DNA of 64,000 bases from Nitrososphaera sp. (lineage in GTDB: Archaea > Thermoproteota > Nitrososphaeria > Nitrososphaerales > Nitrososphaeraceae): positions 1-64,000 of the forward strand of contig JBDUUL010000015.1 of assembly GCA_039938515.1 (NCBI GenBank). The letters are read 5' to 3'. Positions 31,526 through 36,364 of this stretch are shown piece after piece (position 1 is the first letter of the stretch; every line of letters starts with the position of its first letter). The position numbers and the translations under genes were made by a program. The notes under the pieces were generated by a model. The model did not search any database, had not been told where the DNA came from, and saw only the letters and a list, made by a program, of their open reading frames with translations.

Positions 31526-32881
31526 CTAGTTTGTGGTGTCGAAGCAGGGCGATAGAGCCTTGCTATACGGCTGTTCATAACACGGCAGTGTCGAAGTTCC
31601 GTTCCAGTGATTGAATGGTGTCCCGAATGTGTATGGAGTCGTGGTCTGCGCAATGCTGTCCATTCCCATAGGAGGTACTGCGTTGGATGGATTGGAAACT
31701 GAGGTGCCTTGCGGAGACACTAGTACGACCGCGACCTGACCCTTGAACAACTGCGAATAGTCGTGATTCACGATGACGAATGCGCCGGGTTGCTGGAAGG
31801 TTACATCAATGATTGCAGTGTTTGCAGCACCTATCATGAATGTCTGGACGCCTTGCTGGACCACACCTCCTTGCGTTACTTGGTCGAGAATCTCGCCTAC
31901 GATGTGGAAGTTGACTGGATAGTCGCCGCTATTAAGAACGAAGAATCGGACATGGTCTCCTTGGTTGAACTGCAGTGGCGTCGCCCCAGTGACGGTCGGC
32001 AGGTTTCCTGTGGTTGGGTTCAGCGCAAGTGGCTGGTAGCCGTATGGAATACCGTTGATAGTCGCATATGTCACGTCATGGTTGTACATTGCGGTCCAAT
32101 CAAAGTCGCCATCCTTAGTCGCGTCTGCGTTCTGAGTGAGGTAGTATTCTCCAAAGTCAAGAGCAACTTCCTTTGCGTCCGCAGAGACCGGATGATTCCT
32201 AGTAGTATTTCCAACCGTCGTTGTGAGCTTGTAGCCTTGGTAACCATTTGCTGGATCTACTATAACTATTCCATGCATTCCTCTGAAAGCGTGCTCTGCA
32301 AGGTCGTTTACGTGGCCCTCACAGTGGTATTCCCATGCACCTGGTTGAGTTGCAACAAAGTAGTAAGTCTGAACTGCCGGGGCAGAAGCCGGTGCGACGA
32401 AGTTGAGTGCGCTAATTACAGAAGCGTGGTTGTCAATGCTATGCGTATCCGTGTTTGTTGCCGGGTCTGTGATTGTTGCAATGATGACATCGCCTTGGGT
32501 TGCCCTGATTACTGGTCCGGGGATAGTCCCGTTGAAGGTGTAGGCAATAACATGGCTGGCGAGATTTCCGCCGTCACCGCCAGAAGCACCAGTAGGCAAG
32601 GTGATTGTCTTCTCAAACGCCACCAAGTTCATGTGGACGACGTGTCCGCTTAATGCAAAGGCTTGCTGTGGAGTGATTTGCATAAAAGAGGCTGGTAATT
32701 GCAGGTTCAGTCCGTCAAGTGCCGAGTGATGGTTGTTGTCTGTCAGTGGAACTGACGTGGATTTTGTGGTTTCTTGTGTCGTTGAGGATCCAGATAATCC
32801 GAGGCCAGGTACAAAAATCAAGGCCACGACCAAGATCGCCGCGACTGAAGCGGCTCCTATTGAGAGCACATTTTGGTTCAA
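31526..32881 (-). CDS. nirK: Copper nitrite reductase-type multicopper oxidase NirK
   Basis: A 451-residue, two-cupredoxin enzyme exported by an N-terminal helix (VLSIGAASVAAILVVALIFV). HSIDNHA contains the type 1 His, the catalytic Asp and a type 2 His; EYHCEGH and AEHAFRGMHG contain type 2 His, type 1 Cys, His and Met; FHIVGE in domain 2 supplies the third type 2 His. This is the NirK pattern, reducing nitrite to NO, and is a hallmark of ammonia-oxidising thaumarchaea. The C-terminus adds about 60 residues with two Cys. TTG start follows TATA box GTTAAATAATAG by about 32 bases. Confidence 0.93.
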   Translation of the reverse strand: MNQNVLSIGAASVAAILVVALIFVPGLGLSGSSTTQETTKSTSVPLTDNNHHSALDGLNLQLPASFMQITPQQAFALSGHVVHMNLVAFEKTITLPTGASGGDGGNLASHVIAYTFNGTIPGPVIRATQGDVIIATITDPATNTDTHSIDNHASVISALNFVAPASAPAVQTYYFVATQPGAWEYHCEGHVNDLAEHAFRGMHGIVIVDPANGYQGYKLTTTVGNTTRNHPVSADAKEVALDFGEYYLTQNADATKDGDFDWTAMYNHDVTYATINGIPYGYQPLALNPTTGNLPTVTGATPLQFNQGDHVRFFVLNSGDYPVNFHIVGEILDQVTQGGVVQQGVQTFMIGAANTAIIDVTFQQPGAFVIVNHDYSQLFKGQVAVVLVSPQGTSVSNPSNAVPPMGMDSIAQTTTPYTFGTPFNHWNGTSTLPCYEQPYSKALSPCFDTTN

Positions 32882-32992
32882 TTGAGCTCATATCGAGCTG
32901 AGAAAACTATTATTTAACAAATTACCGAAGAATTTATCTATAACTTAAATTCTCGGACTCTCTCACGTGATTTCTTTGGTTGGTCGTTTTTC

Positions 32993-33038
32993 ATTATTTG
33001 AAATAATGCATGCCGTCAACCAGTCGTGCGTCGGTTGA
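32993..33038. promoter_or_regulatory. Palindromes upstream of nirK
   Basis: ATTATTT-G-AAATAAT (32993-33007) is a perfect 15-base palindrome. TCAACC (33016-33021) and GGTTGA (33033-33038) form an inverted repeat next to it. Both lie 80-125 bases upstream of the nirK TATA box. The gene-free stretch 32882-33160 contains these and the nirK promoter. Confidence 0.5.
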
Positions 33039-33160
33039 TCGGACGCATTGCATTTAGCTGGCAATATGATGTGCTATGCCGCAATGGGCCCATTATTTGA
33101 TTGCAAACCTATCAGAAAGTGAGAAAAAGAGAGAAGATGGAAAACCTGTCTCAAGCTTTC

Positions 33161-33889
33161 CTAATGGACGATAACCTTGCCCGTCATCCACGGGTGCACC
33201 AGGCAGACATAGTTGTATGTTCCCGGCTTTGTGAACTTGACAGCAAAGGTCTCTATCGGCTGCGTACCCGGTGGGTTCATTCCTTTCGGCCAAATCCAGC
33301 CCGAATTTACATATCGCTCGTCGGAGTTCATGGTATAGTTTGAGTTTGGTGGCATGTACTTGACATTACCGGCCTTGTCAATCGCCACAGGCGCGTCAAC
33401 TCGAGCATTTGCAATTATGGCAGTAGTCTTGCCCGGAGGCCCGGCCGGAATCGTCACCGGATCAGCATTTGCAGCCGGATTCAGAGGTGTGATATTGCTA
33501 CTATTGGATATTACAAACGGAGCCTCGATATCCGCAAAGTATGACTGGTTTGTTATAAACGACACAGTGTGCGGCTCACCAACACGGGTTGGATTGTACC
33601 AGACAACGGTTTCGCCTGCCTTTATTTCGGCTACCTTTGGAAAGAACTGGGTCAGCGGGGCTATCGCGCCTCCGGCTCCGGCCCTGACTTTGAACACGCC
33701 GTTGCTATAGTCCATGTACTTTCTGGACTCAGAGTATGCAATTGCGGGTTTGTCTGACGATGATGGAGATGATGATTGCGCAAGTGCGGATGCGCCTGTC
33801 ATGACAACAACTGCAGCGACTAAAATCCCGGCTGCAGCGATGCCGCCAAAAAGTGCACTAGTTTTTCTGTTTGAAGTTTTGCCAAACAT
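33161..33889 (-). CDS. Plastocyanin-like blue copper protein, exported
   Basis: A 242-residue cupredoxin protein. ATG 33889 (MFGKTSNRK) is used because a TATA box TGCTTAAATCC is 29 bases upstream; an in-frame upstream ATG exists but lies before that box. A signal/anchor helix (GGIAAAGILVAAVVVMTGASALA) precedes a Ser-rich linker. Copper ligands: His in GEPHTVSF and Cys, His, Met in YVCLVHPWM. A long insert separates them. It lies next to nirK and probably carries electrons in the same periplasm-like space. Confidence 0.9.
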   Translation of the reverse strand: MFGKTSNRKTSALFGGIAAAGILVAAVVVMTGASALAQSSSPSSSDKPAIAYSESRKYMDYSNGVFKVRAGAGGAIAPLTQFFPKVAEIKAGETVVWYNPTRVGEPHTVSFITNQSYFADIEAPFVISNSSNITPLNPAANADPVTIPAGPPGKTTAIIANARVDAPVAIDKAGNVKYMPPNSNYTMNSDERYVNSGWIWPKGMNPPGTQPIETFAVKFTKPGTYNYVCLVHPWMTGKVIVH

Positions 33890-33981
33890 CCCCTCGCGGC
33901 AAGAACAAGGGGGATTTAAGCATACTTGCAAACGTCCGCGGTTGTGCAATGGCCGCCTACCGCAACGCGCCTTTCTATTTG

Positions 33982-34876: not shown

Positions 34877-35051
34877 GGGCAGCATGTCTGCGCCGGGATC
34901 AACGGCGCGGCAGCCGCCTAGTGTGCAGGCGGGCCTTACAGTCGTCAACTACCGAACAACGGGGACACAAAGGTGTGTTTCAGTAGTAGAACGCGACTGT
35001 TTAACGGTTCACCTTAAATGAAACGGCCTTGCTTTGTACTGTACCAAGAAC

Positions 35052-35978
35052 ATGCCGGATTCTCCTGACGACCTTGAGTACAAGCTTCAGGGCAGAACAC
35101 TGGAAGTGTACCTTTACCTTGTGCGAAAAAAACATCCCGTGGGAATCCGGGAGCTTCAGCGGGAGATTGGCCTTTCAAGCCCAAGCGTAGCTGAATACCA
35201 CGTTGAAAAGCTCGTGGCAATGGATATAGCGCAAAAGGACGCCTTTGGCCGGACCCGGATTACAAGAAAGGTAAAGGTCAAGGCGCTTTCAGACTATGTA
35301 GAGCTGGGCTCTCACATCCTGCCAAGGCTCGTACTTTACGCAGCTGCATTTACGGCGGTCTCGATTGCAATAGTTGTGGCGAGCTGGAAGTCGGTCAACA
35401 TTTACGGGCTGGCAGTCTCGTTCGCAGCTGCCTGCATATTCTGGCTCGAGGCGCTCAAGAACAGAAAGACGTTCCTGCACAGCTCGGCAAAAAGCAAAGG
35501 CATTCAGGCCACTGAAACAAGCCCGCTACAAAAGAGCCATTTTTGGGTGTCACTTGCGCCGGGGGTCATTGCCCTTGCAGCGTTTGCTGGCACTATCGCG
35601 TTTCTGTACTACTATATCACTCCAGCACCCCCGGACACACATACTGTCCAGATGCCGCCTGTACTAGGCTATGGCGACGACCCTTCCGCGCCGCCTCCGC
35701 TCTCATCATCGAGCCCAAGCGTTGAATACTCCAAGGAAATGTCCGCCAAGAAAGTCCAGGAGGCAGGGCCGGCAGACAGGTTGATTCCGTCGCCTGCGCC
35801 TGAACTCTATGCGGTCCTCGCCTTTGCCAGCGCACTTGTCATTGGATTCATTGCTTATCTTATAGTCAGATACAGGTGCGGTGAACTGGAACGCGTGGCT
35901 GTTCTGCCGCAAGAACACATGAAGATATTTGCGTTCGGAGACCAGGATTATCCCGCACGCCGTCAAAAGCGCATCTGA
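35052..35978 (+). CDS. Membrane-anchored winged-helix protein
   Basis: A 308-residue protein. Residues 8-75 form a winged helix (GRTLEVYLYLVRKKHPVGIR, ELQREIGLSSPSVAEYHVEK, then GRTRITRK), like archaeal HTH proteins that recognise DNA. Two hydrophobic helices follow (LVLYAAAFTAVSIAIVVA; IYGLAVSFAAACIFWLEAL), then a third, a Pro/Ser-rich stretch, and a fourth. It looks like a membrane-tethered transcription factor that could sense something outside. Start ATG 35052 (an in-frame TTG at 35034 is possible). Its stop overlaps the next gene (TGATG). Confidence 0.82.
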   Translation: MPDSPDDLEYKLQGRTLEVYLYLVRKKHPVGIRELQREIGLSSPSVAEYHVEKLVAMDIAQKDAFGRTRITRKVKVKALSDYVELGSHILPRLVLYAAAFTAVSIAIVVASWKSVNIYGLAVSFAAACIFWLEALKNRKTFLHSSAKSKGIQATETSPLQKSHFWVSLAPGVIALAAFAGTIAFLYYYITPAPPDTHTVQMPPVLGYGDDPSAPPPLSSSSPSVEYSKEMSAKKVQEAGPADRLIPSPAPELYAVLAFASALVIGFIAYLIVRYRCGELERVAVLPQEHMKIFAFGDQDYPARRQKRI

Positions 35979-36364
35979 TGAAAAGAACAACCTTAATTCT
36001 GGCATCAGCGGCCATGGCATTGGTCGCAATTCTGGCAGTCCAGGGCAACAGGCTGGCCTTTGCGCAGTCCCTGTACGGTGGCGGTGACACTCCTTCTGTA
36101 GGAGGAGTGACGAACGCGACGCTTCAAAAGTGCGAGCAGCTCGGCATTGCAAGGAGCCAGTGCAACGATCAGACGATTCTTGCGAAAGAAAGGATCGGCA
36201 TCAAGGGACAAGGTTCAGGCACCCCGATGATAGCAACACAATCCGGACAAATGTTGATTTTTGTAGGAGTGCTGGGCGTGATTTTCGGAGGCGTGGCGGC
36301 AGCGTTTCTGCTTCAGAGCAGGCGTTCAGGAGTCAGGGAGAAGAGTGCGGAGCGGCAGAGATAG
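35978..36364 (+). CDS. Exported small protein with two hydrophobic helices
   Basis: A 128-residue product with a signal peptide-like start (RTTLILASAAMALVAILAV, then FAQS), an external segment with two Cys (KCEQLGIARSQCN) that could form a disulfide, and a C-terminal helix (MLIFVGVLGVIFGGVAAAFLL) with basic tail. Translation is coupled to the membrane winged-helix gene, so it may be that protein's external partner. Function unknown. Confidence 0.75.
   Translation: MKRTTLILASAAMALVAILAVQGNRLAFAQSLYGGGDTPSVGGVTNATLQKCEQLGIARSQCNDQTILAKERIGIKGQGSGTPMIATQSGQMLIFVGVLGVIFGGVAAAFLLQSRRSGVREKSAERQR

Follow-up and report, generated by a model that had tools for sequence, protein, structure and literature searches.

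A putative membrane-bound regulator conserved beside a paralogue of the candidate ammonia monooxygenase subunit AmoZ in Nitrososphaera

The window, i.e. the whole stretch of 64,000 nucleotides of Nitrososphaera sp. DNA that was analysed, contains a conserved and specific regulatory locus of two genes, 35052-35978 and 35978-36364, which lie exactly where an earlier note on this DNA had placed them. The first encodes a predicted winged-helix domain attached to four hydrophobic segments, the second a paralogue of AmoZ, a candidate subunit of the archaeal ammonia monooxygenase (AMO), and a short palindrome recurs upstream of both. The constituents are of known kinds (an archaeal membrane one-component regulator and an AMO-subunit paralogue), the combination of which was not found in the literature searched. 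On balance, and with modest confidence, we favour the reading that the locus represents an autoregulated membrane one-component regulator with an alternative AmoZ as its main output. The palindromic site shared by both genes suggests a dedicated switch for this enzyme subunit in soil ammonia-oxidising archaea. Archaeal ammonia oxidation accounts for a large share of nitrification, and with its regulator, short palindrome and AMO-subunit paralogue the locus lends itself to joint tests of all three. Its features, in window positions, are the following:

34976..34993, + strand: dyad of the regulator promoter at -76, degenerate, TGTTTC-N6-AGAACG, 3 mismatches (0-1 mismatch in the other 11 of 12 promoters)
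35012..35019, + strand: TATA-like box of the regulator, CCTTAAAT, 18 bp past the dyad (CCTTAAA in 12/12 regulator promoters examined)
35035..35052, + strand: further dyad, 1 mismatch, its last base coinciding with the A of the ATG (absent at this place from the aligned promoters of orthologues)
35052..35978, + strand: gene 1, putative membrane-tethered winged-helix regulator, 308 aa (ATG at 35052, stop ends at 35978)
35064..35267, + strand: winged-helix domain, aa 5-72 (AlphaFold2 model, Foldseek match to LexA)
35328..35447, + strand: transmembrane helices TM1 and TM2, aa 93-132, end of the portion common to the short HTH-2TM family (hydropathy, profile matches)
35547..35603, + strand: TM3, aa 166-184, start of the portion equivalent to a separate partner gene elsewhere (hydropathy, profile alignment)
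35721..35762, + strand: predicted external-loop helix, aa 224-237, within the region resembling the AmoZ core helix (AlphaFold2, profile score)
35811..35867, + strand: TM4, aa 254-272, with the C-terminus taken as cytoplasmic (hydropathy, AlphaFold2)
35900..35917, + strand: dyad of the AmoZ paralogue, perfect, TGTTCTGCCGCAAGAACA, within the 3' end of the regulator gene (upstream alignment, site scan)
35946..35952, + strand: conserved GATTATC element, 28 bp past the dyad and 32 nt before the start codon (14/14 promoters examined)
35978..36364, + strand: gene 2, AmoZ paralogue, 128 aa, with a signal-like segment, a Cys52/Cys62 hairpin, GSGTP and a C-terminal TM (ORF, AmoZ-family search, tree, model)

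The proposal that gene 1 joins a DNA-binding domain to several membrane helices agrees with both the structural model and the hydropathy profile. Four hydropathy peaks were observed (aa 93-111, 114-132, 166-184 and 254-272), and AlphaFold2 predicts a winged-helix domain at around aa 5-70 (pLDDT about 75-89) followed by helices at aa 77-110, 117-148, 163-189, 224-237 and 250-282, at a low overall confidence (60). The models of both proteins are weak except for the HTH domain, the AmoZ hairpin and the TM of the latter. In Foldseek the domain matched the LexA-DNA complex 3jsp (rmsd 2.2 A, 67-68 alignment columns, probability 1.00), and given the E value of about 0.05 (best E for the domain 0.02) this supports the winged-helix fold class only. 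The HTH is highly conserved and its predicted model is compatible with DNA binding, as had been claimed. Searches of Pfam and NCBIfam yielded nothing above threshold, and no HAMP domain was present among the Pfam matches of gene 1 up to E 1. Judged from the positive charges, the TM3-TM4 loop would be external and the C-terminus cytoplasmic.

Gene 1 is a fusion of an HTH-2TM protein and a TM-loop-TM partner. Among 400 genomes of the order, full-length matches of the fused form were listed in 12, namely 11 of the 18 Nitrososphaera genomes and G020, besides a broken copy in G038; shorter relatives, which match up to about aa 140, are more widely distributed (any match in 98 of the 400 genomes). 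A short HTH-2TM gene is followed by a TM-loop-TM gene in 17 of the 27 distinct genomes examined, as counted by eye from 36 loci with repeated genomes, where at least one more partner (L025) had been missed by the script. The profile of 16 such partners is collinear with the second half of gene 1 over 95 columns (probability 90%), from which it follows that gene 1 joins two genes that are neighbours elsewhere. Five other families, used as control, scored at most 0.7% against the gene 1 half and about 10% against the partners. The unfused pair shares the HTH-2TM half with gene 1 and has in its partner a homologue of the remaining half; it differs from gene 1 by consisting of two genes and by a partner profile without the AmoZ-like signal described below. 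The idea of a regulator plus external accessory describes this unfused pair well. An origin of AmoZ from the separate TM-loop-TM partner was considered and found unsupported (probability 0.8% in the profile comparison). The own genome of the window (G000) also has a short HTH-2TM relative (G000:C1:291434-291844); it has no partner behind it, as the gene that follows is oppositely oriented, and the neighbours are presumably ribosomal.

Gene 2 is a paralogue of AmoZ. With its protein (P0002) as the sole query, relatives were recovered in 39 of 61 genomes at E 0.01 or better, including amoY-linked amoZ genes of G010 (E 2.4e-27), G014 (3.0e-17) and the own genome (1.4e-14); these values and the tree place gene 2 within the AmoZ family. 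One set of relatives directly adjoins a short TM gene (cluster c2), and in G037, G044 and G054 a family member is located near amoB, amoC, amoX and amoA. Pfam confirms AmoA, AmoB and AmoC at the G037 locus (L088); the AmoX and AmoY found near AmoZ relatives we take to be such on the basis of their position. The traits that the earlier note had ascribed to the gene 2 product (export, two Cys, a membrane tail) were borne out: the N-terminus is signal-like, the cysteines are Cys52 and Cys62, and a TM helix lies at the C-terminal end. Moreover, the protein retains the AmoZ traits (Cys pair, GSGT and G/F-rich TM motif), and by eye the C-X9-C spacing, which is that of most Nitrososphaera AmoZ examined, is kept in the alignment in 13 regulator-linked copies and an orphan in G016. 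No solved structure of the family was found.

AmoZ itself is a recently proposed subunit of the archaeal AMO, named in 2023 (Hodgskiss et al. 2023, PMC10030591). As published, it measures 12.8 kDa, has one TM, is encoded directly upstream of amoY and has an ectodomain of two helices with a predicted disulfide in Nitrososphaera, features that fit both the family of gene 2 and the amoZ-amoY arrangement seen here. Gene 2 has in common with the AmoZ described there (PMC10030591) the sequence family, the GSGT motif, the C-terminal TM and the signal-like N-terminus. It differs in that it lacks the usual MNK start, carries a dyad in its promoter and is not beside amoY, the mark of a genuine AmoZ gene: in the own genome amoY adjoins the copy at C1:319,190, whereas the window copy is on C15 and the one amoA match on C22.

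The AmoZ family is restricted to genomes with an ammonia monooxygenase in the set of 61, as its presence is concordant with that of AmoA in 53 of these and in 24/24 outside the family of the window (6 with both, 18 with neither). The eight discordant genomes all belong to the family of the window and are each at most 84% complete. In the order as a whole, the AmoZ profile matches 278 of 400 genomes. The occurrence of AmoZ paralogues in regulatory settings affects the counting of AmoZ in genomes and proteomes. A tree was made after removal of six shadow-frame matches; the AmoZ alignment A2 comprises 42 of the 43 rows, L086 being left out for its over-long start. The grouping of the regulator-linked copies as one clade obtained AU p values of 0.008 (all 13), 0.086 (without G038) and 0.040 (those 12 plus G016). 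The tree does not group these copies as one clade and so does not demonstrate a single duplication; it is compatible with one or several. The suspicion of gene conversion between AmoZ copies gave AU p values of 0.13 and 0.08 for two parts of the protein.

Additional AmoZ copies occur elsewhere too. A third copy in G010 (L080 6022-6883) adjoins an HxlR-type regulator, and no dyad with under 4 mismatches was found upstream of it. In ammonia oxidisers of another family (G058, L172 6594-6926; G125, L173 6287-6685) a second AmoZ has genes for an ammonium transporter and two P-II proteins as neighbours, as assigned by Pfam in G058 and by eye in G125. The mature part of the second G125 AmoZ is identical to that of the amoY-linked copy, with a different signal peptide.

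The pairing of gene 1 and gene 2 is more than chance. The conservation of the pair, which the earlier note had put forward as a check, was found in all 12 genomes whose fused regulator is intact (11 of Nitrososphaera, and G020 of a sister genus). The pair is also together in the more distant G038, where the regulator is broken by two tandem stops in the HTH wing; of this regulator only the open part past the stops was aligned, and it is excluded from the 12 regulator promoters. The TGATG overlap of the two genes is real (35976-35980) but not conserved, as it was observed in the genome of the window only. In seven other loci the spacing is 7-63 nt, in G017 one gene intervenes between regulator and paralogue, in G020 the order is reversed, and in three further loci the gap was not measured or was negative through an over-long ORF. 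The fused regulator is missing in 7 of the 18 Nitrososphaera genomes, i.e. G016 (95% complete) and six incomplete ones, and G016 keeps the AmoZ paralogue without any fused regulator found. In named genomes a scan with single proteins found no relatives and a scan with alignments recovered 11 loci (6 Nitrososphaera sp., 2 Nitrososphaeraceae, 2 Pelearchaeum and 1 Benthortus); no relatives were found in viral contigs. Identity of the pair with NVIE_027260, which is reported to correlate with AMO in gels, was dropped as interpolation places the pair near NVIE_0262xx, which is an estimate; the tags NVIE_0261 to NVIE_0263 were not found in the literature searched.

A candidate palindromic target near the pair, as the earlier note had envisaged, emerged from the alignment of upstream DNA of the orthologues in the form of an 18-bp dyad, TGTTCT-N6-AGAACA, before both genes. 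Counted at no more than 1 mismatch within 200 bp, it occurs in 11/12 regulator promoters, the exception being that of the window, in 12/14 paralogue promoters (those of G020 and G038 deviate at 2 positions) and in 0/16 of the other amoZ genes (15 AMO-type, 1 orphan). None of 500 permuted palindromes scored a genome in any promoter set. No dyad with under 3 mismatches was found in the 6 upstream regions of short HTH-2TM genes checked. In most genomes the 3' end of gene 1 contains the dyad of gene 2, which in G016, G017 and G020 persists outside the coding sequence of gene 1. Inspected by eye, the surroundings of the single dyad of G016 look as if the two dyads had recombined with loss of gene 1. 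Single strands around the dyad folded no better than shuffles.

The distance between the dyad and the TATA-like box takes two values. It is 17-18 bp in nine regulator promoters and 28 bp in three regulator and 13 paralogue promoters, with 27 bp for the G038 paralogue, so that all 26 promoters have either 17-18 or 27-28 bp; as these promoters are related, the counts do not represent independent events. The boxes differ, CCTTAAA for the regulator versus GATTATC for the paralogue, the latter of which would serve as TATA box with a non-canonical sequence. The distance from the box to the start codon of the regulator varies between 17 and 52 nt, probably owing to uncertain starts. A two-valued spacing, one helical turn apart, suggests that the bound factor contacts the basal machinery.

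The mechanism that we favour starts from gene 1 as a membrane-bound one-component regulator, an HTH-2TM protein fused to its former TM-loop-TM partner, a dimer of whose winged-helix domains would bind TGTTCT-N6-AGAACA before its own gene and gene 2. Binding most likely activates both genes, considering that the dyad is upstream of the TATA-like box at spacings differing by one helical turn. The gene 2 product would be exported to the side where the AMO ectodomains are thought to lie and could enter AMO there, making it the main output: an alternative AmoZ under a membrane-sensed condition, which might be AMO assembly, copper or redox state. Feedback of this product on the sensor, the external loop of which has an AmoZ-like helix, is also conceivable. 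Repression of both genes by gene 1, relieved by a membrane signal, is unlikely in our view: a near-perfect site of the window lies past the TATA-like box and runs into the start codon, as would suit a repressor, but the shared sites are upstream of that box at the two spacings, which would be the usual place of an activator. In the window the regulator dyad has decayed and a 1-mismatch site reaches the first base of the ATG, so that autoregulation might work otherwise in this genome.

Outside the locus the dyad is no more common than a control pattern. The 18 genomes of the genus contain 29 perfect YGTTCTN6AGAACR sites, 21 of these at the pair locus, versus 26 for the reversed pattern, and at 1 mismatch five genomes contain 39 sites (10 at the locus) versus 48. 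Of the eight perfect off-locus sites all but G003:C174 were inspected; six of them showed no common context and the seventh lies within an ORF, as do the eight 1-mismatch sites inspected. No wider regulon was found among these. Given the lack of an off-locus excess, the likely regulon is the locus itself, with gene 2 as the likely output, and weaker sites at other genomic places are possible. The same equality with the control means that another protein could own the dyad, gene 1 then being an HTH-fold membrane protein that does not regulate the locus, and the persistence of the dyad in G016 without gene 1 fits this. We nevertheless deem it improbable, because the dyad accompanies the pair even when the order is reversed (G020), the distant G038 has a 1-mismatch and a 2-mismatch site before the two genes, and the HTH of gene 1 is highly conserved.

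Of the one-component sensor with an external accessory proposed in the earlier note, the tethered winged-helix protein, the exported conserved partner and the palindrome beside both genes were recovered, but the partner is an AmoZ paralogue with its own promoter region and dyad that is kept in G016. As the dyad is not enriched elsewhere, this partner looks like an output at least as much as a sensor accessory; the accessory is matched more closely by the separate TM-loop-TM gene of other archaea, a homologue of which forms part of gene 1 here. ToxR/ToxS of Vibrio, a membrane winged-helix regulator and a co-located gene for an exported partner, resembles the pair in that regulator and exported partner are encoded and conserved together (12/12 intact and G038), and differs in topology and in that the partner here stems from an enzyme-subunit family and has its own dyad. 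A chiefly sensory, ToxS-like gene 2 product that binds the external loop and tunes a regulator acting on weaker, missed sites is a tentative alternative, to which we assign a small though appreciable probability. The tight pairing, the exposed parts of both proteins on the same presumed side of the membrane and the AmoZ-like helix in the regulator loop argue for it; the dyad and promoter-like block of gene 2, its persistence alone in G016, the preserved AmoZ Cys pair, GSGT and G/F-rich TM motif, and the lack of another conserved target among the inspected 0-1 mismatch sites argue against it.

The helix in the TM3-TM4 loop resembles the core helix of AmoZ. Against AmoZ without Cys the profile comparison scored 26.1 for the loop alone and 33.4 for the whole half, versus at most 20.3 for 180 control windows from 24 other families, which were scored against this set only. 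The loop scored 19.1 against all AmoZ and 14.0 against the Cys-type, which includes that of Nitrososphaera itself. Column shuffles reached the observed score in 0/200 (all AmoZ), 1/200 (without Cys) and 3/200 (Cys-type) for the loop, and in 0/200, 0/200 and 1/200, respectively, for the whole half; because outlying scores above 130 came up in a few shuffles, we rely on the 180 real control windows. Among the 13 regulators, those of G010 and G017 have a degraded helix as judged by eye. The signal is absent from the profile of the TM-loop-TM partners of other archaea, and the helix may therefore have been acquired at the time of the fusion or later, possibly by mimicry or capture of AmoZ or by chance convergence of a short amphipathic helix. 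The regulator might even read the state of AMO, the loop mimicking the AmoZ helix and competing for or pairing with AmoZ-binding surfaces, such that loss or damage of AMO activates the alternative AmoZ. If true, this would be a transcriptional feedback loop made from a subunit of the enzyme served, but we consider it distinctly unlikely as the loop is only weakly like the Cys-type AmoZ of Nitrososphaera itself.

A known archaeal counterpart of gene 1 is ArnR/ArnR1 of Sulfolobus acidocaldarius, a membrane-bound one-component HTH regulator with the target TCGAC-N5-GTCGA. ArnR has putative HAMP and sensor domains followed by two C-terminal TMs, and its targets are archaellum and pili promoters (PMC6396743). 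As compared with that description, gene 1 shares the archaeal origin, the HTH and membrane anchor in one protein and a candidate inverted-repeat target, and differs by its four TMs with a first peak at aa 93, a loop taken as external, the absence of HAMP, another dyad and an AmoZ-like neighbour. In the passages on AmoZ and on regulators of ammonia-oxidising archaea that were covered, we found no mention of an amoZ paralogue or the fused regulator. Hodgskiss et al. (PMC10030591) report that they found no evident promoter motif shared by all six amo genes.

Finally, several neighbouring genes may be mentioned. In the window, genes for a multicopper oxidase and a plastocyanin-like protein (31526-33949) are found upstream of the pair, past a divergent NUDIX gene. 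The gene inserted between regulator and paralogue in G017 encodes a plastocyanin-like cupredoxin (L063 7059-7610, Pfam PF00127), and one dyad precedes this gene and another the paralogue. The distant pair of G038 adjoins a urease accessory gene (UreD; L073 6649-9072).
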